Origin: Alphaproteobacteria bacterium | GTDB taxonomy: Bacteria > Pseudomonadota > Alphaproteobacteria > SMXP01 | Reading direction: 5' to 3' | DNA length: 64,000 nucleotides | Assembly: GCA_028285305.1 (NCBI GenBank) | Contig: JANQPV010000037.1 | Coordinates: 158,838-222,837 of the forward strand | In this document: one piece after another, positions 6,340 through 52,374 of the stretch | Position numbering within the stretch: position 1 is the first letter of the stretch | Layout of the letters: every line of letters begins with the position of its first letter | The notes under the pieces: generated by a model | The model's input: the letters and a program-made list of their open reading frames with translations, nothing else | Told to the model about the DNA's origin: nothing | The model's database searches: none | Program-made: the position numbers and the translations under genes

Positions 6340-7557
6340 CTACGCCTGAAACGCTTGAATGCCCGTCTGCGCCCGGCCCAAAATAAGCGCGTGCACATCA
6401 TGGGTGCCCTCATAGGTGTTGACCGCCTCAAGGTTCATCACATGTCGGATTACGTGATACTCGTCCGAAACGCCGTTCCCGCCGTGCATATCGCGGGCAA
6501 CACGTGCGATATCGAGAGCCTTTCCACAATTGTTCCGCTTCATGATGGATATAACTTCCGGAGCGCCCGTCCCTTCGTCCAGCATTCGGCCGATCCGCAA
6601 CGAGCCTTGGAGCCCCAGCGCAATCTCCGTCTGCATATCGGCCAGCTTTTTCTGGATCAGTTGGTTTGCCGCCAATGGACGGCCGAACTGTTTCCGCTCT
6701 AGGGTGTAGGTCCGCGCAGCCTGCCAGCAAAACTCCGCCGCCCCCATGGCCCCCCAACTGATGCCATAGCGCGCCTTGTTCAGACATCCAAAAGGACCGC
6801 CGAGCCCTTCAACATTCGGCAACAAGTTTTCCTCAGGGACGAAACAATCTTGAAGGACGATCTCACCGGTCGGCGAGGCCCGCAGAGAAAATTTACCTTC
6901 AATTTTTGGTGTCGAAAATCCATCAAACTCCCGCTCGACCACAAAGCCGCGGATCTTGCCGTCAAGCTTCGCCCATACCACCGCCAGATCCGCGATCGGC
7001 GAGTTCGTGATCCACATCTTCGCACCGTTGAGTACATAGCCCCCGTCTTTGGCCACAGCCGTTGTCACCATACTGCCGGGGTCTGACCCATGGTCCGGCT
7101 CGGTAAGCCCGAAACAGCCGACCCACTCTCCGGTGGCAAGCTTGGGTAGATATTTTCTACGCTGATCTTCGGTCCCATAGGCGTAAATTGGGTGCATAAC
7201 GAGCGAGCTTTGCACGCTCATGGCCGAGCGATAGCCCGAGTCCACCGCCTCGACCTCGCGAGCAATGAGGCCATAACACACATGGTTGACGCCGGCGCAG
7301 CCATACTCTTCCGGCAGAGTGGAGCCTAAGAACCCCATTTCCCCCATCTCGTTCATGAGGGAACGGTCAAAGGTCTCATGGCGGAACCCTTCTTTGACCT
7401 GCGGAAGCAGGCGCTCCCTGGCAAATTTGCGCGCTTCTTCCGCGATGATGCGTTCTTCCTCGGTCAGTTGGTCCGCCAGAAGAAACGGATCTTCCCAGTT
7501 AAATGTCGGTTTTACCGGCTTTGCCGCGGCTGGCGGCGCGGAGTCTTGAACGGCCAT
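6340..7557 (-). CDS. gcdH: Glutaryl-CoA dehydrogenase
   Basis: About 405 residues, acyl-CoA dehydrogenase family. [18 protein letters not shown] at the N-terminus, [17 protein letters not shown] and [17 protein letters not shown] (FAD/acyl-CoA region), then [18 protein letters not shown] at the end. The YEGTHD glutamate (about residue 383) is at the place of the catalytic base in glutaryl-CoA dehydrogenase, and the whole C-terminal motif matches that subfamily. It oxidatively decarboxylates glutaryl-CoA to crotonyl-CoA in lysine/tryptophan degradation, passing electrons to ETF. ATG at 7557 follows AAGGAAAAGG; the upstream ATG at 7677 would add 40 unusual residues. Divergent from the Rieske oxygenase gene. 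Confidence 0.92.
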
Positions 7558-7704
7558 GGCCTTTTCCTTCAATCCTAATCCAGAGGCCTGCATACGATGT
7601 CCCCGGTCCCCGCACAAGGCGGCCTCTTGACCCAATCGGCCAGACTCGGTTGACTGTTTTCCAGTCAAAAAAGCCATGCTACGTTCCCGAGATGGGAGAA
7701 CGCG

Positions 7705-9027
7705 ATGAACCAGACAATCACAAACTTTTCCAAAGAACGCTATCTGTCCACAGACTATGCCGCCCGCGAATGGGACGCCATGTGGACAGAGACCTGGCTG
7801 TTTGCCGGCCTTGCCAGCGACGTCGCCAAGCCCGGCGATTATTTCCTATTCAATATCGGCGTTGAGTCTATCATTGTCACCCGCACCAAAACCGGCGACG
7901 TGGCCGCGTTCTACAATGTCTGCAAACATCGCGGCAACCGTCTGGTCCGGCCCGAGAATCATATCGGCTGCGCGGAGAAGTTCCGCTGCCCCTATCACGC
8001 CTGGACTTATGATCTAGACGGATCACTAAGAACAGTTCCGGACCGTCATCGCTTCAGCAACGGTCTGCCCGAAGACAAACTATCCCTCAGCCCCCTGTCC
8101 TTAGAAATCTGGCACGGCCTCATCTTCATCTCCATGAGCGATGCGCCGGTTCCGTTCAACGAGTTCATGGGACCGATCACGGACGAGCTTGCCCCTTACC
8201 ATCTGGACAAGCTCACCCTCGTCGCGGACCAGTCCTGCTCCCACAATTGCAATTGGAAAGCTATGCTCGACAATTTCGCCGAGCTTTATCATGTGGACTT
8301 CATCCACCCTTTGCATAAAACCTTCGTGGACTGCCCAAATGCGGAGGTCGAGTTTTATGATCACGGCCACACGCTCGTCCGCGTGCAAGGCGGGACCGTG
8401 AACCCGCGCTACCCCATACCAGATGAACCCACAGACATGATGAAGGCCCAGCTCTCTTCGCTTGGCGTCAACCCGGCAGAGTATGACGGACGGGTCCTCG
8501 ACGTGCGCGAAGCCATTCAAAAGCAAAAGCGCGACCTCGACGGAAAACACGGGTACGATTATTCGGGCTTGTCCGACGCCCAGCTCTCTGACATCTGGCA
8601 GTATAATCTGTTCCCGAACATTATATTGGCCGTCACCCCTGAGTTTACCTGGATCATGCGCGCCATGCCCCACCCCACAGATCCCCAAAAGGCCTACTTT
8701 GAAAAGTTCGACCTGGCCATGTTTGCCGATCCAGACCTCATGAATGAGTCGCCCTCCACCGCGGACGATGCCCCCGTTCATTTTGTCGCCGGCGGCGCAA
8801 AGCCGACCGATTACAAGCGGCCCGAGCGGGACTACTTCGACCATGACGAAATCATCGCGGGCAACAAAACCATGACCGTCACGATCGATGAAGACATTCA
8901 TCTGCTCGGCGAAGTGCAAGCGGGCATGCGCTCCAAAGGCTTTGAGCAGGTCTGGCTCAGCGATGACGAAATGCGCGTCCAGCACCTTCACAACCATCTC
9001 GACGCGATGATCGAGCGCGGGGTTTAG
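7705..9027 (+). CDS. Rieske non-haem iron oxygenase, alpha subunit
   Basis: The 440-residue protein has a Rieske [2Fe-2S] domain with C73-K-H75 and C95-P-Y-H98, and a catalytic SRPBCC-type domain with [19 protein letters not shown], which supplies the two iron histidines; the third carboxylate ligand lies further on and was not pinned down. Enzymes of this group hydroxylate aromatics or demethylate/oxidise small amines, using a separate reductase. No reductase or ferredoxin gene is adjacent, so the substrate cannot be inferred. It shares a 147 bp divergent promoter region with glutaryl-CoA dehydrogenase. No frame disturbance is seen. Confidence 0.88.
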
Positions 9028-9197: not shown

Positions 9198-10361
9198 TCA
9201 GGGTACCAGCTCAAAAACAAGTTTTGCCAACCGCTCCTCAATTTCCGAAACAACGGGCGTGTCGGCATCTATTATGCCGATATCCGTATTGATCTGAAAT
9301 GAGATCGCTGTGTCGTAATCGGGATAGTATTGCAAACTCGAAACATATCCGGGAATCCAGCCTCTGTGTCCCTGAGCAGGGCCGTAGTCGCCGCCCAAAT
9401 GTATGGATAATCCCAATCCGTAAAAGGAGCTGGGATCGGACCTTGATGTGGCAACACTGCTCGTTATCTCCGCCAAGCTAAATTTTCCGAGAAGATCACC
9501 AGAAATGTACTGATACCCCCAGTTGGCGAGGTCATCAGCCGTCGAATAGAAACCACCGCCCGCCCATTCTACGACTGGGTTCCAGACCATGTTGCCGGCG
9601 TCATCTGTTGTGAACTTGGGCAATCCGAATCCCGAAGCCGAAGAGACGTAGCCTCGAGCAAGACCATCAATGTCGATTCGGTTCGATGGCCCTGTGTTCT
9701 TTAGACGAGCAGGTTTAAGCAATCGCGACTGAACCAGCTCTTCGAATGAAAGATCTGTCGCTTCCTCAATGATCAGCCCAAGTATTAGGTATCCAGTGTC
9801 GCTATAAGACCAGCCTTCCCCGGCAGGAAACAGGGGGCTCTCATCCAGAACAAGGCTGATTAAACCTTCGGGGCCCAGCTCTGCGGCTTGGTCAAGGCCA
9901 ATCGCGGCAAATGCGGGCGCATGTACGTGATCCCGCAAGCCGGACGTATGCTGTAACAAATGCCGGATGGTCATCGTTTCGCCATTGGACAATCGCTCAA
10001 ACCAAACTTTGTTTCCAAGCCAGTCAGATATCGGAGCATCCAGTTTAAGTATGCCTTCGGCACTCAACTGCATCACACTGGCAGCCACATAGGTCTTGCC
10101 GATGCTCGCTGCGAGCATCGGTGTATCAGTCGTCATCAGACGGACGGCCTCCAAGTTGGCAAATCCCGCGGCGACAGACAGTGAAGTTTGACCATTTACA
10201 ACGGCTGCCGTTATCCCAGGGAAGTCGTACCCATCCAGTATCGCCGTTACTTCAGTCCGCAGTTGGGTTTCAAGTGTTGCGGTCTGTTTTGTTGGCACTG
10301 AACAGGCCGTGTTCAAACAAACGATGACCAATATGAGAGGGAGGCTCCGAGACGAATTCAT
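9198..10361 (-). CDS. Serine hydrolase, class C beta-lactamase-like
   Basis: 387 residues. The N-terminus is a hydrophobic export signal ending at a cysteine (LNTAC, Cys20) that may be lipidated, although the lipobox is not ideal. S86-I-G-K89 in MLAASIGKTYV is the nucleophile motif and YSDTGYLILG is the second (Y-x-N-like) motif; a late GHRGWIPGYVSS segment may give the KTG-equivalent. This is the penicillin-binding/esterase superfamily; peptidase, esterase or D-aminopeptidase activity are equally possible. The start codon overlaps the stop of the CPBP gene as ATGA, so the two are translationally coupled. Confidence 0.85.
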   Translation of the reverse strand: MNSSRSLPLILVIVCLNTACSVPTKQTATLETQLRTEVTAILDGYDFPGITAAVVNGQTSLSVAAGFANLEAVRLMTTDTPMLAASIGKTYVAASVMQLSAEGILKLDAPISDWLGNKVWFERLSNGETMTIRHLLQHTSGLRDHVHAPAFAAIGLDQAAELGPEGLISLVLDESPLFPAGEGWSYSDTGYLILGLIIEEATDLSFEELVQSRLLKPARLKNTGPSNRIDIDGLARGYVSSASGFGLPKFTTDDAGNMVWNPVVEWAGGGFYSTADDLANWGYQYISGDLLGKFSLAEITSSVATSRSDPSSFYGLGLSIHLGGDYGPAQGHRGWIPGYVSSLQYYPDYDTAISFQINTDIGIIDADTPVVSEIEERLAKLVFELVP

Positions 10362-11218
10362 AGAGCTGAGCGTCCTTGAGTGACTACACTTGTCGAGTGA
10401 TGGGGGATCACTCTGGTTACGGCCTTTCTTCTGGTGAACATCGTGTCACGATTCCACCAGACAACGAGTATTGTGACACCAACGAGAATCCAGGTGTCAT
10501 AGGGCTGGGCGTCGGGCCAGAAGGGATTGATGAGCTGCCAATGAAACAGCATCGGCCACAACAGACTACCACGCGAACTATTGAAAATGGGGGTCACTAA
10601 GATCGCGAGCGTTACATTGCCGACCAAAAAAGGAAAGAAGTCCCATCCGGCGAATACGGTTGTAGACAGAGAGAAGGCGGGCAGATGCCAAATGCCCCAA
10701 ACGAGCCCGATGATTGTTCCTGCCCAGATGGGAGCGACATGGCGTTGCAGAATCGGTTGCGCGAACCCTCTCCAACCAAACTCTTCAACTGGGCCGAGAA
10801 ACAACATTAGAAAGAGGACGGTTATCGGCCCGACAATCCCCTCCGGCGGAAGTGGCGCGAGCAACGGACCACTTTTGAGAAGGGAACCAATAACGAAGAC
10901 GATTGGAATCACAACAAGAATGAAGCCAACCCAACCGTGGGGACATCGCCACAAAACAAGGCGGGAAACAAACAACCCCAGTCCCGAGGGTCCTGCGAAA
11001 TAGAGCACCAATGAGATTGCCGCAATCGCGGGCGCCCAGGTTGCGAGAAAGAAGAACGGGTGTCCGCCGCTGATAGGTCCGAACTCTGCCGTCGCCCAGT
11101 CAGGAAAAATGACGTACATCCCGATAACGCTCCAGGTGATGCTGAAAGTCAGAACTCCAAAAACCAGCAGGGCGCGTGTGGGCACGCGATCGTCTCGCTT
11201 GGGGGTTTGAGTTTCCAT
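10358..11218 (-). CDS. CPBP-family intramembrane glutamic protease
   Basis: About 286 residues with seven or eight hydrophobic segments. Motif 1 is GPVEEFGWRGFAQPIL, with the Glu-Glu pair and conserved Arg, and motif 2 is GLVWGIWHLPAF, the F/W-x3-H pattern; a later WQLINPF supplies another polar site. These define the CPBP (CAAX protease / bacteriocin-processing, Abi) family of membrane metallo- or glutamic proteases. Bacterial members are often linked to bacteriocin self-immunity or peptide processing; no bacteriocin gene is visible here. ATG at 11218 follows GGAGG; ATG 36 nt upstream is less likely. Co-transcribed with the serine hydrolase and divergent from the AraC-type gene. Confidence 0.87.
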   Translation of the reverse strand: METQTPKRDDRVPTRALLVFGVLTFSITWSVIGMYVIFPDWATAEFGPISGGHPFFFLATWAPAIAAISLVLYFAGPSGLGLFVSRLVLWRCPHGWVGFILVVIPIVFVIGSLLKSGPLLAPLPPEGIVGPITVLFLMLFLGPVEEFGWRGFAQPILQRHVAPIWAGTIIGLVWGIWHLPAFSLSTTVFAGWDFFPFLVGNVTLAILVTPIFNSSRGSLLWPMLFHWQLINPFWPDAQPYDTWILVGVTILVVWWNRDTMFTRRKAVTRVIPHHSTSVVTQGRSAL

Positions 11219-11406
11219 CACTTGTTGCCTCCCTGGGTGCCGTCTGGATATCAATCCAGCAAAAAGCGCGTAAGACCGCGACCTGGCGTGAGGGCTCGTA
11301 CTTCCCGCTACGTGATTTCGCCAGGCTGTGAAATGACTTTGGAAGTGCGAACCTTCGATTTACAGATGACGCACGTCGCGCCAAACGAGAGGAGAAGAAC
11401 TCGCTA

Positions 11407-12648
11407 GTGCACCAGGTGCTTTTGACGATCGCCGTCGCGCAAACTTTCTTCGCGGCCCTGATACTTGTATTGGGAAAGAAGGAGGAACGGTCTCGATCCG
11501 CCGCATTGTTGGGCGGATTTGTTTTCGTATACGGCGTTTCGTTCTTCCAAGAGCTGGAACTGTTCTCTCGATTAAGTGCAGGGGCACCGTTTTTGGTGCC
11601 TCTCTCGTTCTTCTTCTATTTCTTGATCGGCCCCACATTCTATTTTTACATCAAAGACATCACCAAAGGCGCCGATCAACCTTTGGTGCGCAACTGGCCC
11701 CTGCATATCGCCCCGATCGTCCTTGGGGTTCTCTTTATGTCAGCGTGGGTGATGATGAGCGAAGATGCTCGTCAGTCTGCCATCAGCAATGAATTCTGGC
11801 CAATCGAAGGGCCCATAACTCCATTTGCTGTTTCAATTTTTCTGGCGCAGATGATCAGCCATATCCAGGTTTTCTCCTACCTAATGGGTAGCTTGAGGCT
11901 GCTTTATGAGCACCTTTCTCGCATTCGAGATCTGTTTTCAAATCTTGAGAACAAAACGTTGGGTTGGCTGAGGCTCGCTATACTGGCTCTCACAGCGATT
12001 TGGTTTACCGACCTGGTGACGGATATTGGCTACATATTTGGTTGGTTCGGCCGCTTGGGCGAAATCGTATTCACTTTCGGCGAGCTGATGTTGTTTTATT
12101 TCGTTACGATTTGCGGTCTTCGTCAGCCTACAATCATTGTTCAAGAGCAATCGGACGCAACTGACTTCGGCAATGCCAAAGTCGATATCGTGAGCGTTTC
12201 AAGCGAGGGCGGTCATGCTTTAACGCACGATCGGCCGATCGCGTCGGCTCCTAAGTCCGAATCCCGCACGAAGTACGCCAAGTCCGCGCTCGACGAAACG
12301 CACATGAAACGCATTGCTGAAAAACTAGAGCAGGCGATGGTGAACGATCGGCTCTTTACCGACAGCTCATTGACACTTGCAGACCTCAGCAAGAACATCC
12401 GCACACCGCAGAACTATGTTTCTCAGACGCTGAATCAACAATTGGGGCTGAAGTTCTATGATTACATTGCACGCCATCGGATCGAAGCGGCAAAAGCAAT
12501 GTTGTCGGACAACAAAAATGGGAGCACAGTCCTATCGATAGCGCTCGATGTAGGGTTCAATTCTAAGTCCACATTCAATGCGGCGTTCAAGCGCATTGTC
12601 GGCTCAACACCCTCTCAGTTCAGGCAAGAACAACACGACAAGACCTGA
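11407..12648 (+). CDS. Membrane-anchored AraC-family transcriptional regulator
   Basis: 413 residues. The first 230 contain about seven hydrophobic segments (LTIAVAQTFFAALILVLG, FLVPLSFFFYFLIGPTF, IAPIVLGVLFMSAWVMM and so on), a 7TM sensor module. The C-terminal 110 residues are an AraC DNA-binding domain: SLTLADLSKNIRTPQNYVS, then YIARHRIEAAKAML and SIALDVGFNSKSTFNAAFKR, ending in GSTPSQFR. Such proteins couple a membrane signal to transcription. Start is GTG with AGGAG about 10 nt upstream. It faces the CPBP/serine-hydrolase pair and precedes the OmpV-like gene, so both are candidate targets. Confidence 0.88.
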   Translation: MHQVLLTIAVAQTFFAALILVLGKKEERSRSAALLGGFVFVYGVSFFQELELFSRLSAGAPFLVPLSFFFYFLIGPTFYFYIKDITKGADQPLVRNWPLHIAPIVLGVLFMSAWVMMSEDARQSAISNEFWPIEGPITPFAVSIFLAQMISHIQVFSYLMGSLRLLYEHLSRIRDLFSNLENKTLGWLRLAILALTAIWFTDLVTDIGYIFGWFGRLGEIVFTFGELMLFYFVTICGLRQPTIIVQEQSDATDFGNAKVDIVSVSSEGGHALTHDRPIASAPKSESRTKYAKSALDETHMKRIAEKLEQAMVNDRLFTDSSLTLADLSKNIRTPQNYVSQTLNQQLGLKFYDYIARHRIEAAKAMLSDNKNGSTVLSIALDVGFNSKSTFNAAFKRIVGSTPSQFRQEQHDKT

Positions 12649-13611: not shown

Positions 13612-15177
13612 TTAGTGCCGTGCGGCGATGTTCAAGAGGGCCCTGTCGATCCGGGACAATGCGGAGGGCGAGTCCAGCGGCCGGTCGTTCACGATAATGG
13701 AAAAGACCAAAGTCTGCCCGCTTTTGGCTTGCATGTAGCCGGACAAGGCATCTGCGTGATTGAGCGACCCCGTCTTGGCAAAGATTTTTCCCTCTAACGC
13801 CGTTCCGCGGAATCGATATTTCAGTGTTCCAACCGTTGCGCCGCCGACGGGCAAGCTGGCGCGATAGGCGTCCCCCCAAGGCGCGGCGGCCGCGTAGCGC
13901 AGAAGGGCTGTAACGGCCGCAGGCGTGACGCGGTTGTAGCTGGACAGGCCCGAACCGTCGGCAATGTCATATGATGAGCGCGTTACTCCAACGTCTTCCA
14001 AGAACTCTTGGATGTGCAGCAACCCACAAAAGGAAGAGCCTCTCCCGGCCACGTGGCCCAACTGGCGCAGCAGAACCTCGGCATACAGATTCAGACTCTT
14101 TCGATTGATTTCGGTCACGACCTCGCGGAGCGGCGCAGGAGGGAGGGACGCGATGACGGTTTGGTTAGGCACTACCTGACCTCTTGGTACGCACCGCAAT
14201 GAAGCGGCCGGATCGTTCGGATTGGTTGGCTTAGGTTCGTCAGCATACTGGAGGGGCCGGCGCCGGGTTCGCAGTTCCCCCAAAACCGACACGCCATTCG
14301 CCTCCAGCGCCCTCTTGAAGTACCAAGCGGCCAGGTGCGCGGGATTGTCGACTGCCAGATCGAGTTTCACAGATTTCGATCCGACGGGCAGCTCGCCGTA
14401 GAGCCGCGCCGTTCGCTCGCCGATGCGCCGTTCCAACCGCAATGCTCTCGGCGTGTCTGCCTTGCTGGTCGTCGCCTCGTTGCGGAGACCGAAATAGCTT
14501 GGTCCGGCACCGACCCACGACGCACGCACGCTGGCTCCCGGAGCGCCCGCAGGGGAGACTCTCAAGGGAAGGATATTGTCGTTCACAGCGATCGCCGAGA
14601 TAGATGTTCCGTGGCCAAATTTAAGGTCGTCCCAGCTCCATCCCAGGGGCCTCCGCTCATCGGCGAACCAGCGATCGTCGCCGACAATATCGCCCACCTC
14701 TGCGATCCCCACCGCCGCCACGGCTTTTGCTAAGGTTTCAATACATCGCGAGCGGCAATCCGTACCGAACCCAACAGTCGGATCCCCGCGCCCCACGAGC
14801 GCAAGGGTTGGCGGCCCCGCCTCCGCCGGCTCCGATACGACCCGCAATCCAGGCTCTAGAGCCGACAACTTTGCCTCTGCCGCGAGCGCCGCCGCCGTTA
14901 CGAACAATTTGGCGTTAGAGGCCGGCACAAATCGTTCGTCCGCCCGGTGCGCCACAAGCACCTTGCCGTCTAGATCGGTCACCGAAATCCCATACCGAAG
15001 CCCGGCAAGGGGTGAGTGGGTTTCACCTCTGCTGGAGGCTTCACCATGAACCGGGATGGTCGCACTGGCCAGAATGGCGGTTCCCACGACAATGCTCCGC
15101 CAACAACGGCACACGCCGCGCCAGGCCGAAACTTTGTCTTTCGCCGCGCGTCTCATCGATAAGAAGACTTCCTCCAT
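13612..15177 (-). CDS. dacB: D-alanyl-D-alanine carboxypeptidase/endopeptidase, PBP4 type
   Basis: 521 residues. A hydrophobic segment around residues 28-42 acts as a signal sequence ending near VHGEA. All three active-site motifs of class C penicillin-binding proteins are present: PASNAK (S87-x-x-K90), DGSGLSSYN (S-x-N) and FAKTGSLNHADALSGY (KTG). The large insertion between motifs 1 and 2 is typical for PBP4. It trims or cleaves D-Ala cross-links of murein in the periplasm. ATG at 15177 follows AAAAGGGGCAGAG; an internal ATG (residue 8) is an alternative. Single gene, convergent with the OmpV-like gene. Confidence 0.9.
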   Translation of the reverse strand: MEEVFLSMRRAAKDKVSAWRGVCRCWRSIVVGTAILASATIPVHGEASSRGETHSPLAGLRYGISVTDLDGKVLVAHRADERFVPASNAKLFVTAAALAAEAKLSALEPGLRVVSEPAEAGPPTLALVGRGDPTVGFGTDCRSRCIETLAKAVAAVGIAEVGDIVGDDRWFADERRPLGWSWDDLKFGHGTSISAIAVNDNILPLRVSPAGAPGASVRASWVGAGPSYFGLRNEATTSKADTPRALRLERRIGERTARLYGELPVGSKSVKLDLAVDNPAHLAAWYFKRALEANGVSVLGELRTRRRPLQYADEPKPTNPNDPAASLRCVPRGQVVPNQTVIASLPPAPLREVVTEINRKSLNLYAEVLLRQLGHVAGRGSSFCGLLHIQEFLEDVGVTRSSYDIADGSGLSSYNRVTPAAVTALLRYAAAAPWGDAYRASLPVGGATVGTLKYRFRGTALEGKIFAKTGSLNHADALSGYMQAKSGQTLVFSIIVNDRPLDSPSALSRIDRALLNIAARH

Positions 15178-15617
15178 TCGCTCTGCCCCTTTTGGATCCT
15201 GTCGATAGGATCGCCTCTACATGATGCAAGCAGATTAGAGCAAACCAGCCTTCGGTTCCAGCACGCGAGCGCCCCTTGCTCTCACGACCCCAACAGTTCA
15301 AGCGACGTGATGAGCGCGTGGACGCTGAGCCGCGTTAATTTCCGCCTACTGTTCAAATGCCGGTGATGGCCAAAGTGATAGTGTACGGAGGGAGGCGACA
15401 CCTTGGCAACTTTGCCCCCCCCCCGAGAGAGGCCCGCGCCGCTCATGCTTCTGAAGATCTCTAGTTTCAGACGTGTGCGCTTATGCCGGCGTCAAGGGCG
15501 TCGGTATAGGCGCACGTTGCTCTAGATATCGCCTGCCAAGCCTGCTAATTTCGCCAAATCGATCGCAGCACAAAGTCGCGCAAGAGCGTCGGCTACGCAC
15601 GTAAAGAGGGGCGGAAT
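15178..15617. other. 440-bp intergenic region with a C10 tract
   Basis: Divergent spacer between dacB and the redoxin selenoprotein gene. No convincing gene is seen on either strand. It contains a run of ten C residues at 15415-15424. The last 12 bp carry GAGGGGCGGA, the ribosome site of the downstream gene. Promoters of both genes must lie here but I could not place them with confidence. Confidence 0.5.
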
Positions 15618-16760
15618 ATGGCAGAAACTATGATGGCTTATCCTGAGCTTCGACACCCGTTCGAAGCAACACCGGTACATTCCGAAGGCAGCACGACCGT
15701 CCTCTATGGCGGCAATGCGGTCACACTCACCGATACCGGCAGCGGCGATAAGCTGCTGATCGATCCAGCTGATCTCTCGCGCATCAACGGATTCGAGCTG
15801 AAACCCGAAGGGGCCTGCCGCGGGGATCTATGCATACCGCTCCCGGATGGAGCGCTGGTGGAGCAAGACGGAAAAGGCTGGTTCGACTTGACCGGGTTTG
15901 CCGAGCATGTTGGACAGCCCTACGTCGCTGATGTCGAGGCTCGCGTCTGGAGTTTCAGCGACGTGCCCGCCACACGGGACGATATGCGCGTGAACGCGAT
16001 GGCGCCCGACCTTGCGTTAACCGACCGATCAGGTGAAGTCATTCGTATCGCCGACCTGAAGGGGAAGAAAGCGCTGATCGTTACGTGGTCGTCTTGGTGA
16101 GGCTGCATGTTTGATGTGCCCGTGTGGCAACAACTGTATACAGAAATCAATGATGAGAACTTTGTCATGATCGTGGTGGCGGAAGACACCGGCGGCGAAG
16201 CGACGGCGGGTCCCATATTCGACGCGGCCAACCCGACTTACGTACAGGTCATCGACCCCGATCATTTGGTAAGCAGCGCGTTTAACTTCGTGAACGTCCC
16301 ATCGGCAGCTTGGATTGACGAAGAAGGCCGCATTGTGCGGATCGATGAAGGCACTTACTCCAAGATCCATACCTTCGGCGAGGGCGATCAAGCGTTCGAA
16401 TTTGGCAATGACGTCTACGCGCCCGCCGTGAAGGATTGGGTCGCTAAGGGCGCCGACAGCGTGCACGTGCAATCGGCAGCGCAGGTCACCGGCAACATTC
16501 GTCAGCACTCGGCCGATCAGCTCAAAGCGGATGCAGCGTTTCGCCTGGGCAACCTCTTCCGGGCGCACGGTCAAGAAGCAAAGGCGGAGCGGTACTGGGA
16601 AATGGCGCGCAGCCTCAATCCGGACAGCATCAACTTCCTTCGCCAAGATTTGACGCTGAGCGAGGAAGGGTCCGCCGGAGAAACGTTTTTTGGCGTTATG
16701 GGCAAGTACATGTCCGAAGGGAAAGACCTGTATAGGCCACTCGACATCGAGAAGAGTTAG
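15618..16760 (+). CDS. Thioredoxin-like (redoxin) selenoprotein, Sec161 at in-frame UGA
   Basis: Two open frames (15618-16097 and 16101-16760) are in the same frame, separated only by TGA at 16098-16100. Read as selenocysteine, the product is 380 residues. The UGA follows KALIVTWSSW and precedes GCMFDVPVWQQL, exactly where a redoxin has the first cysteine of its WCGxC active site. The next cysteine is at +2 (U161-G-C163), not +3. Upstream, NAMAPDLALTDRSGEV is the normal redoxin entry strand; downstream, VNVPSAAWIDEEGRIVR gives the cis-proline region. Residues about 300-345 look like a TPR unit (AAFRLGNLFRAHGQEAKAE). No signal peptide, so cytosolic. The N-terminal 110 residues contain a CRGDLC pair and are unassigned. 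ATG follows GAGGGGCGGA. Possible alternatives are a decayed gene or a separate start at 16107, but a stem-loop at 16111-16133 supports Sec insertion. Confidence 0.82.
16111..16133 (+). promoter_or_regulatory. Candidate bacterial SECIS element (redoxin selenoprotein)
   Basis: In the mRNA just after the UGA, UGCC (16117-16120) pairs with GGCA (16126-16129) around a CGUGU loop. A lower helix UUG/CAA (16111-16113 with 16131-16133) is separated by a small asymmetric internal loop. The loop G is its second base, 22 nt after the UGA. Bacterial SECIS elements need a short stem within roughly 16-37 nt of the UGA and a G in the first two loop bases. The stem is short, so this is weaker than the element at 51913. 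Confidence 0.65.
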
Positions 16761-48568: not shown

Positions 48569-49639
48569 ATGACTTACGATTATCTCGCCTTTGTCGGGCG
48601 ATTTCAGCCTTTTCATCTCGGACACAAGCAAGTCGTTGATGCGGCTCTGGAAACCGCCGGCACGGTTATCTTGCTGATCGGCTCCGCCAATGTGGCCCGC
48701 TCTCAGCGCAATCCCTTCACCTATGAAGAGCGCGCGGCCATGATCAATGCGATCTACCGCCACGAAATCGCGACCAAAAAACTGGTTTTGCGGCCCATAG
48801 ATGACTTTACCTACAACGACATGGCTTGGACCTCCGCCGTTCAACGCCAGGTCACCGACGTGGTCCGTGAGCTCGAAAATCCGGGGGACGCATCTGAGGA
48901 TATCAGCCAGACCAGAATCGGCCTCACCGGCTTCGGAAAGGACGGCAGCAGCTTTTACTTAAAGATGTTTCCCGAGTGGGGAAATCTCGATGTGAAGCCG
49001 AAGTTTGGCGTTTTAAGTTCAACCGATATCCGAGAAGACTATTTCCGAGGGAACCCGTCACTGCCCCATGATGCGTGTCCGGAACCGGTGATCGAGTTTC
49101 TGCAAGGTTTCAGAGAAACCGAAGCCTTTGATCAGCTGGTCCGGGAGGCAAACTTCGTCAAAGACTACCGGGCAAAGTGGGCCGCGGCCCCCTTCCCTCC
49201 CACATTCGTCACCGTCGACGCGGTCGTGGTCCAAAGCGGCCACGTGCTCCTTGTGACGCGGGGCCAAGATCCCGGCGCCGGATTGCTGGCGCTGCCGGGT
49301 GGCTTTGTAGACGGCGATGAAAAACTACGCAACGCGGCCATCCGGGAACTGAAAGAAGAAACCCAGATCGCAGACCAAAAGGGCCCCATTCCGCCGGCCA
49401 TGCTCGGATCGTTCATTGAGGACCGGGAAACCCGAGTCTTTGACGATCCCTATCGCTCCGCCCGCGGACGCACCATCACCCATGCATTCTTGTTCCGCTT
49501 GCCGGACCGTGATGCACTTTTCAAAGTCAAGGGGAGTGATGACGCCGCCCACGCTCAATGGTACCGGCTCGGCGATCTCGATCCGCGACATTTTTTCGAC
49601 GATCACTGGTTCATCCTCCAAGAAATGACTGGAATATAA
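48569..49639 (+). CDS. Bifunctional NMN adenylyltransferase / Nudix hydrolase
   Basis: 356 residues. The N-terminal half is a nucleotidyltransferase (FVGRFQPFHLGH, HxGH site; SSTDIREDYFRG). The C-terminal half is a Nudix domain with the box GGFVDGDEKLRNAAIRELKEETQI. Fusions of this type make NAD from NMN and hydrolyse ADP-ribose. nadV lies 53 bp downstream on the same strand. ATG follows CGAGGGAGTC. Confidence 0.94.
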   Translation: MTYDYLAFVGRFQPFHLGHKQVVDAALETAGTVILLIGSANVARSQRNPFTYEERAAMINAIYRHEIATKKLVLRPIDDFTYNDMAWTSAVQRQVTDVVRELENPGDASEDISQTRIGLTGFGKDGSSFYLKMFPEWGNLDVKPKFGVLSSTDIREDYFRGNPSLPHDACPEPVIEFLQGFRETEAFDQLVREANFVKDYRAKWAAAPFPPTFVTVDAVVVQSGHVLLVTRGQDPGAGLLALPGGFVDGDEKLRNAAIRELKEETQIADQKGPIPPAMLGSFIEDRETRVFDDPYRSARGRTITHAFLFRLPDRDALFKVKGSDDAAHAQWYRLGDLDPRHFFDDHWFILQEMTGI

Positions 49640-49692
49640 GTATTGTGCGCCTAAGGAGTTTAGGCAGCGCCCATGGACAGAGGAGGTCTGTT

Positions 49693-51084
49693 ATGTCTCT
49701 TATTCTGAACACCGACAGTTACAAAACTTCTCACTATCTCCAATACCCCCCGGACACGCAGGGAATTTCCGCTTACATTGAAGCGCGGACGGGCGGAACG
49801 TATGACTCAGTCCTGTTCTTCGGCTTGCAGATGTTCTTGAAGGAGTATCTATCCAGACCCATCACAAAAGAAGATGTCGACGAGGCGCAGGAGATCATCA
49901 CGGCCCACGGAATGCCGTTCAACGAAGCGGACTGGCAACTGTTAGTCGACGAGTTGGGCGGGATTTTGCCGCTCGAGATTGAAGCCTTAGCCGAGGGAAC
50001 CATAGCGCCCGCAGGCGTTCCGCTTGTCCAAGTCCGCAACACTGATCCCCGGTTTTTCTGGCTCCCCACATATATCGAGACCGCCCTCCTGAGAGCGGTG
50101 TGGTACCCGACAACCGTCGCGACCGTGTCTTGGCATGTGAAACAGACAATCGCCGCAGCACTGGAGCGATCCTGCGACACACCCGGCGACATTCTCCCAA
50201 CGCGGCTCCAAGACTTCGGCGCCCGGGGAACCGGCGCCTTGGAACAGGCGGGAATCGGCGGGACCGCCCATCTTGTGAATTTTCAAGGCACCGATACGAT
50301 CGCGGGTCTGCTCGATGCGCGCAAGTATTACGGCGAGGCCATGGCGGGCTTTTCTATTCCGGCGGCGGAGCATTCCACCATAACTGCCTGGGGAGAAGAC
50401 CGAGAGACTGACGCCTACCGAAACATGGTCGATCAGTTCGGTGGGCCGGGTAAATTGGTGGCCGTCGTCTCCGACTCTTATGACCTTTACAACGCCGTAG
50501 ATAAGATCTGGGGGCAAACATTAAAGGAAAAAGTGCAGACGTGCGGCGGCACAGTTGTGGTGCGTCCCGACAGCGGCGATCCCACGGAGGTTCCCATCAG
50601 GACGATCGAAAAACTGGGCGATCACTTCGGCTTCGCAACAAACAAAAAGGGCTTCAAGGTGTTGGCGCCCTGCATTCGGGTCATTCAGGGTGACGGCGTC
50701 ACACCTCAAACGATCGCAGTTATTCTTGACGGGCTCCTGGACAGGGGTTGGTCAGCAGAGAACCTCGCCTTCGGCATGGGCGGCGGGCTCCTTCAAAAGG
50801 TCGACCGGGACACGCTTCGCTTTGCGATGAAGGCAAATGCCCGCTTGGACGAGGGCGGGAATTGGATCGGCGTCAATAAAGCTCCAAAGACAGATCCGGG
50901 CAAAGCATCGAAGCGGGGCCGCCAAGCCGTCATCCGAAGCGGAACGACGCTGACCGCCGCGCCAATTGAAGAGTTAGGGTCGAACGCCAACCAAATGACA
51001 CCTGTCTGGCGCGACGGAGAATTGCTCGTCGATCATTCGTTCGCGGAAATCCGTGACCGCTCCGAGGCGAAGCTGACCTGGTAG
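49693..51084 (+). CDS. nadV: Nicotinamide phosphoribosyltransferase
   Basis: About 463 residues. NTDSYKTSHYLQYPP, YIEARTGG, the PRPP/NMN core LQDFGARGTGALEQAGIGGTAHL, VVVRPDSGDPTEVPI, and AFGMGGGLLQKVDRDTLRFA are NAMPT signatures. It makes NMN from nicotinamide and PRPP; together with the NMNAT-Nudix it forms a two-step NAD salvage route. ATG 49693 after GAGGAGG. A longer frame back to 49558 overlaps the upstream gene and is rejected. Confidence 0.95.
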   Translation: MSLILNTDSYKTSHYLQYPPDTQGISAYIEARTGGTYDSVLFFGLQMFLKEYLSRPITKEDVDEAQEIITAHGMPFNEADWQLLVDELGGILPLEIEALAEGTIAPAGVPLVQVRNTDPRFFWLPTYIETALLRAVWYPTTVATVSWHVKQTIAAALERSCDTPGDILPTRLQDFGARGTGALEQAGIGGTAHLVNFQGTDTIAGLLDARKYYGEAMAGFSIPAAEHSTITAWGEDRETDAYRNMVDQFGGPGKLVAVVSDSYDLYNAVDKIWGQTLKEKVQTCGGTVVVRPDSGDPTEVPIRTIEKLGDHFGFATNKKGFKVLAPCIRVIQGDGVTPQTIAVILDGLLDRGWSAENLAFGMGGGLLQKVDRDTLRFAMKANARLDEGGNWIGVNKAPKTDPGKASKRGRQAVIRSGTTLTAAPIEELGSNANQMTPVWRDGELLVDHSFAEIRDRSEAKLTW

Positions 51085-51150: not shown

Positions 51151-52374
51151 ATGAACGCCTTCACGAACCTGCCAACAGAAATGCCGGTGCGCGAGAACCT
51201 CACGAGCGCTTACCGGGACCTGTGGGACTGGATTGCAGGACCGGGCAACTGGTGGACCGGTGCCGAACGGGTGGCGATCGCAGCCGAGGCACGTGGTGCC
51301 CGCGACTGCGAATTCTGCGCCGTGCGAAAAGAAGCCCTAAGCCCGTCCATGACGGAAGGCACCCACACGACCGTCCAAGACATTCTCTCCGAACATATGG
51401 TCGATGCGGTGCACCGGATCGCAACGGACGCGACCCGGATCACGCAAAGCTGGATCGAAGAGACCTTCTCGGGCGACTTGACGGACGCGCACTATGTAGA
51501 GCTTTTAGGCATCACCGTACTTGTGATTTCGGTGGACCAGTTCTACCGGGCACTGAGCATCCCACTTGAGCCCCTACCCGAGCCACGCGAAGGTGAACCG
51601 TCCCGGTACCGCCCATCAACCGCAGAATCGGGAGTGGGATACATTCCTATGATACCTGCAGATCTGCTGGTCGGCGATGAGGCCGATCTTGCGGCAGGAC
51701 CGAATACACCGAACGTCGTCCGCGCCATGAGCCTCGTCCCGGACTGTGTGCGGCAGATGCAAAACGTGTCCGCTGCGCAATACTTGCCGGTCAAACAAAT
51801 TGCAACGCTCAACATGGATGTGGGACGCGCATTGGACCGGGCACAAATTGAATTGGTCGCCGCAAGGGTCTCTTCCATCAACGAGTGCTTTTACTGAACG
51901 TCTTCTCATTCGCTGATGCTCCGTGCGAGCTCAGAAACGAATAAGCAGGACGTCGATCTCAGGGCCGTCATGGGCCAAGCCGAAGGTGACGTTGGGGTAA
52001 AAGGCGGAGCGGAATTGGCCGCGTTTGCAGAGGCCACCGTGACGGGCGGCGACAATGCAATCACCACGACGCGAGAGGGCGTTTTGCGCGTTCTGGGACC
52101 GGAAGCAACAGTTGATGCCGCCGGTGTGATCGGCAACTTTGAACGCATGGTGCGTATCGCCGACGGTTCGGGCATCCCCTTGGACAAGCCGGTTGCTTTG
52201 GTTAGCGCGGACATTCGGGAAAAAATCGGGATCGATGAATTTGCTTCGTCTCGCAATACGCCCCCTGTGAGAGGCGTCCAAAGGGTCATCGGCCGCATTA
52301 TGTCGAAGATGCTGCCACTGATGTTTAAACTCTTTGGCCCGGAGCGAGAGAAAAGAGATTCCTCCACAAACTGA
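51151..52374 (+). CDS. AhpD-like alkylhydroperoxidase-related selenoprotein, Sec249 at UGA
   Basis: Open frames 51151-51894 and 51898-52374 are in one frame, divided only by TGA at 51895-51897. Read as Sec, the product is 407 residues with C246-F-Y-U249-x3-H253. This matches the AhpD/CMD active site C-x2-C-x3-H, with SSINECFYUTSSHSLMLR aligning well to the usual N-G-C-x-Y-C-x-x-x-H. An earlier CEFC (C53-C56) in an AhpD-like N-terminal half suggests a duplicated fold. The C-terminal 150 residues after Sec continue the domain (ATVDAAGVIGNFERMVRIADGSG). ATG 51151 follows GAGG. A SECIS-like hairpin is at 51913-51934. An annotation stopping at 51897 would lose the active site. Likely a cytosolic thiol peroxidase. 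It lies 66 bp after nadV. Confidence 0.9.
51913..51934 (+). promoter_or_regulatory. Bacterial SECIS element of the AhpD-like gene
   Basis: CUGA (51913-51916) pairs with UCAG (51931-51934); U51917 is bulged; GCUC (51918-51921) pairs with GAGC (51927-51930); the loop is CGUGC. The loop G is 26 nt after the UGA. Bulged U, GU in the loop and distance agree with the E. coli fdhF-type SECIS recognised by SelB. Confidence 0.88.

Follow-up and report, generated by a model that had tools for sequence, protein, structure and literature searches.

The reading frame and its UGA codon

The locus at 51151-52374 (+) of the 64,000-nucleotide stretch of DNA analysed here (the window) raises the question whether a TGA within an AhpD-like reading frame ends the gene or specifies selenocysteine (Sec). 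Between the start codon ATG 51151, which has a GAGG-like ribosome site directly 5', and the terminal TGA at 52372-52374, the only in-frame stop is the TGA at 51895-51897 (+), in agreement with the initial annotation, which described two frames split by this codon. When the UGA is read as Sec, a protein of 407 residues results in which Sec is residue 249. Its active-site string C246-F-Y-U249-T-S-S-H253 matches C-x2-U-x3-H, which places the UGA at the second cysteine of the AhpD motif C-x2-C-x3-H, as had been proposed. Standard gene calling cuts this selenoprotein into two ORFs lacking the active centre: with table 11, two separate ORFs of 261 and 152 residues are obtained. The truncated product of 248 residues that was predicted for such a pipeline is correct if counted from ATG 51151, but it comprises 261 residues if counted from an upstream TTG. 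Judged from sequence and genome content, the gene very probably encodes a 407-residue bacterial selenoprotein with a Sestrin-like two-lobe chain, in which Sec249 would be inserted via SelB and tRNA-Sec and the C lobe would likely act in peroxide or disulfide reduction.

The read-through protein matched the NCBIfam model NF041238, "alkylhydroperoxidase-related (seleno)protein" AhpD_rel_CFYUT, over positions 1-357 of 357 with 450.6 bits (curated cut-off 175 bits), and the CFYUT motif of this family is present at residues 246-250. The Pfam family CMD (PF02627) was recognised in the C half only, with 29.5 bits against a cut-off of 23. For the AhpD subfamily TIGR00777 the score was 17.5 bits, below the cut-off of 191.95.

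Conservation of the UGA among relatives

A survey of the window's class detected the family above the cut-off in 26 of 385 genomes. These contain 47 copies, each with one TGA, which is located at the C-x2-U position in all of them. A genome collection yielded a further 82 copies, which belong to Alpha-, Beta- and Gammaproteobacteria, Myxococcota, Binatia, Verrucomicrobiota and Acidobacteriota, again all with TGA; the copies were found by querying with an alignment, whereas the window protein alone retrieved no relatives from the contigs of this collection. Moreover, in one gammaproteobacterial order 14 of 342 genomes carry the family; each of their 16 copies has one TGA. No family member was found on plasmids or viral contigs, and in a phylum-wide sample the family occurred in the window's own genome only. 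Altogether, 138 of 138 distinct full-length copies checked by motif have TGA at the Sec position and none has a Cys codon, a count that excludes one TGA-bearing copy (L172) outside the motif pattern.

Cysteine had been expected at this position in relatives, and this expectation was not confirmed by the copies found. Neither the 385 class genomes nor the 342 genomes of the gammaproteobacterial order contained a Cys form above the NF041238 cut-off, to which the search was limited, so that more distant Cys relatives below it may exist. Since a Cys version appears to be missing from the genomes searched, the advantage that Sec confers can be put to the test.

Conservation also extends past the TGA. 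In an alignment of the family (A2), T250, H253, L289, F330, R335, A337, D338 and G341 are invariant, as are E234, C246, Sec249 and H253 of the C lobe and C53, C56 and R59 of the N lobe; the N-lobe Cys columns are gapped in 6 of the 47 class copies. The check on homologues proposed in the initial annotation therefore favours Sec, since the TGA is kept in 138 copies and the sequence downstream of it is conserved. An ordinary stop, with a truncated, decayed or mis-assembled AhpD-like gene followed by relic sequence, would conform to the two ORFs called with table 11, but this conservation makes it very unlikely: the identical TGA is found in all copies across several phyla with invariant residues beyond it, the codons past the TGA are locked (see below) and the carriers possess Sec machinery.

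In a tree of 127 copies, long and short C-terminal forms are intermixed and require at least four changes. Several genomes have two to four family copies, and the window copy and its paralogue belong to separate lineages of this tree.

Selenocysteine machinery of the genome

The genome containing the window (5.4 Mb in 77 contigs, 95% complete) was searched by family for the sel genes that the initial annotation had named as a check. SelA, SelB, SelD and tRNA-Sec are all present, on contig C73 at 131-136 kb, and ARAGORN identified the tRNA as tRNA-SeC with the anticodon TCA (UCA in RNA). Adjoining this cluster at 129-130 kb is a second NF041238 copy, which is 45% identical and likewise contains one TGA. 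Further likely selenoproteins surround the cluster in C73:121000-140000 (local coordinates follow): a UGSC-family selenoprotein (NF041046; 5907-6476, -), two proteins that resemble peroxiredoxins and carry a UPYC motif (9296-10060, - and 15019-15750, -) and SelD itself, whose gene has an in-frame TGA (10390-11430, +). The gene at 6490-8076 (-), located between those for the UGSC protein and the AhpD-like paralogue, encodes a protein of 529 residues that begins like a thioredoxin. This protein has no NCBIfam match and was found beside the NF041238 family in three loci.

Within the class the family tracks selA exactly: selA is present in 26 of 26 carrier genomes compared with 55 of 385 class genomes overall (hypergeometric P 2e-25, a value that overstates independence since the genomes are related). 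Among carriers from the genome collection, 24 of 26 tested gave a selA match, one of these below the curated cut-off. In the taxonomic family to which the window belongs, the four other genomes have neither selA nor a copy of the gene above the cut-off.

These data bear on the possibility that the UGA is read as Trp or Cys, through a changed code or leaky reading, rather than as Sec. We regard this as highly improbable, because the terminal codon of the same gene is a TGA used as stop, because tRNA-Sec, selA, selB and selD are present with selA tracking the family, and because a SECIS-like hairpin follows the codon at the right distance.

The SECIS hairpin is under selection as RNA

Insertion of Sec would depend on this hairpin just past the UGA, which SelB carrying Sec-tRNA(Sec) would recognise in order to insert Sec249. 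The initial annotation had placed an fdhF-like SECIS hairpin, in which a U is bulged, 15 nt past the UGA, and we recovered such a core hairpin, CUGA[U]GCUC-CGUGC-GAGCUCAG, at 51913-51934 (+), with the bulged U, the apical loop CGUGC and a start 15 nt past the UGA. The folding energy of the core (45-51 nt) is ordinary against synonymous resamples, 31% and 13% of which reach its value. The extended hairpin around the core (51898-51953, +) is extreme: its 60-nt fold has -22.7 kcal/mol versus -10.6 +/- 3.3 kcal/mol, and 0 of 2000 synonymous resamples were as low. An Rfam scan of the region gave a chance match only.

Codon usage also revealed constraint on the RNA past the TGA, where the initial annotation had proposed a check for a SECIS element. 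Of 134 conserved columns in the 47 class copies, the three with the most pronounced codon bias relative to general usage lie at the SECIS apex and encode Leu (CTC in 46 of 46), Arg (CGT in 39 of 46) and Ser (AGC in 38 of 47). In the 80 other copies, the apex Leu is CTC in 76 of 80 and the Arg is CGT in 59 of 72 and never CGC, which is the commonest Arg codon in the family genes, threefold above CGT. Since the codons at the apex are locked, the hairpin RNA is under selection beyond the protein. In the 47 copies, the sequence varies at the stem pairs 21-37 and 22-36 (numbering starts at the T of the TGA), but most of the pairing is preserved. Stem pairs of the 80 others also vary and for the most part stay paired, though 21-37 does so in only 30 of them. 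Several apex variants, for example CTT...AAAGC and AGT for AGC, keep the stem pairing (L165, L171, L174, L177-L179 and others) and would suit a covariance model of the NF041238 SECIS.

Predicted two-lobe architecture

The initial annotation had taken an N-terminal CEFC as a hint of a duplicated AhpD fold, and both a whole-protein model and a separate model of the N half support this suggestion. The whole-protein model (pLDDT 93.6, pTM 0.92) had human Sestrin2 as its top match in structure comparison, with Z 16.7 and 3.2 A over 239 residues within model positions 1-343. AhpD-like proteins followed on residues of about 160-354 with Z of about 13 (6k40, 2oyo and 2prr 13.2-13.7, with 6k40 at 13.7). 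With Foldseek alone, the AhpD-like 6k40 ranked highest, and all matches had E values of 0.001 or above. The C-terminal lobe, 51640-52212 (+, end approximate), carries E234, C246, Sec249 and H253, and the N-terminal lobe, 51151-51639 (+), carries C53-x2-C56 and R59 with no His at +7. Folded alone, the N half reached pLDDT 90.8, and its 15 best rows in structure comparison were all AhpD/CMD proteins with Z 8.4 to 6.3, values that are middling singly but agree with each other. Because these rows agree and the whole-model matches point the same way, the chain most likely consists of two AhpD lobes. The duplication rests on structure prediction, as the profile comparison of the two halves with hhalign was by itself not significant (E 0.058). 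The likeness to Sestrins appears to be one of fold only: a profile search did not retrieve any Sestrin chain at E values up to 10, and no Sestrin family was among the Pfam matches.

Possible function and genomic context

The two AhpD-like lobes are predicted to form an intramolecular pseudo-dimer, arranged as in eukaryotic Sestrins. The C lobe, which has the full AhpD set, most likely reduces a hydroperoxide or the disulfide of a partner, a role suggested by homology to AhpD and Sestrins; by analogy with AhpD, the C246/Sec249 pair would perform this reduction by cycling through a selenenylsulfide. The N lobe keeps its Cys pair and lacks the His, and one may guess at a part in structure, electron relay or substrate binding; that its Cys pair relays electrons is likewise a guess.

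The gene context does not reveal the substrate: among 101 loci of relatives, even the most frequent neighbour family is present at no more than 11. In the window, a bifunctional NMN adenylyltransferase/Nudix fusion and a nicotinate phosphoribosyltransferase-family gene, together a NAD salvage pair, lie directly 5' of the selenoprotein gene (48569-51084, +), and a gene for a metallo-beta-lactamase-fold hydrolase lies 3' of it. In relatives the neighbourhoods vary, and some include enoyl-CoA hydratase- or acyl-CoA dehydrogenase-like genes.

This variability would also suit a true selenoprotein that serves thiol-disulfide transfer or metabolite chemistry instead of peroxide reduction. We consider such a role a serious possibility, though not the favoured one, as the AhpD fold serves several chemistries and the CMD-fold debrominase Bmp8 was among the structural matches (Z 13.0). 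Nevertheless, the full AhpD set E/C/U/H is invariant and the closest profile matches are annotated as AhpD or peroxidase-related, both of which argue for peroxide reduction. Beyond the preferred reading of a selenoprotein with a reductive C lobe, the family might be a strictly Sec-dependent bacterial counterpart of the Sestrin architecture, selenoprotein-only, with catalysis in the Sec lobe and with electrons delivered to that lobe by the Cys pair of the N lobe. We regard this combination as rather unlikely; were it true, the family would be bound to sel genes wherever it is found.

Comparison with known systems

The gene in the window is an additional member of a selenoprotein family that has been recognised since 2005, and it is no new phenomenon. 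According to a 2026 review, NF041238 corresponds to the Sargasso Sea "hypothetical protein 1" with its C-x2-U motif (PMC13188914), for which the original Sargasso Sea selenoproteome survey limited the evidence on function to a possible redox role (PMC1088965). The window copy shares with this family the full-length profile match, the C-x2-U motif and a bacterial SECIS. Nothing distinguishes it from other members, and it belongs with the copies whose C-terminal tail is about 30 residues longer. Cys homologues of "hypothetical protein 1" are listed in the survey of 2005 (PMC1088965), whereas we found none within the NF041238 cut-off. Two points may be new, namely that no Cys form turned up in the sampled genomes and that the double-lobe architecture is Sestrin-like; in our literature search, no paper linked the NF041238 selenoprotein family to a Sestrin-like tandem AhpD.

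The C lobe shares with AhpD of M. tuberculosis (1gu9) and D. radiodurans (6k40) the fold and the set of E, C, second active-site residue and H. In contrast to AhpD, the window protein has Sec in place of the second Cys and an extra AhpD-like lobe fused in front. Bacterial fused AhpD-like dimers have been proposed as analogues of Sestrins (PMC11429811), and these, like the window protein, are tandem AhpD proteins with the active site in the C lobe. However, they are Cys proteins, and the N lobe of the closest one has no cysteines, unlike that of the window protein. Similarly, Sestrins such as human SESN2 have two AhpD-like lobes per chain, in the same order over model positions 1-343. The catalytic lobe of Sestrin is the N lobe, which has Cys125 and no second Cys, and the site of its C lobe has been lost (PMC4674687), whereas the window protein has a complete C lobe that includes Sec, and an N lobe that retains C-x2-C. 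The predicted two-lobed fold would connect selenoproteins with the bacterial route by which Sestrins have been proposed to arise.
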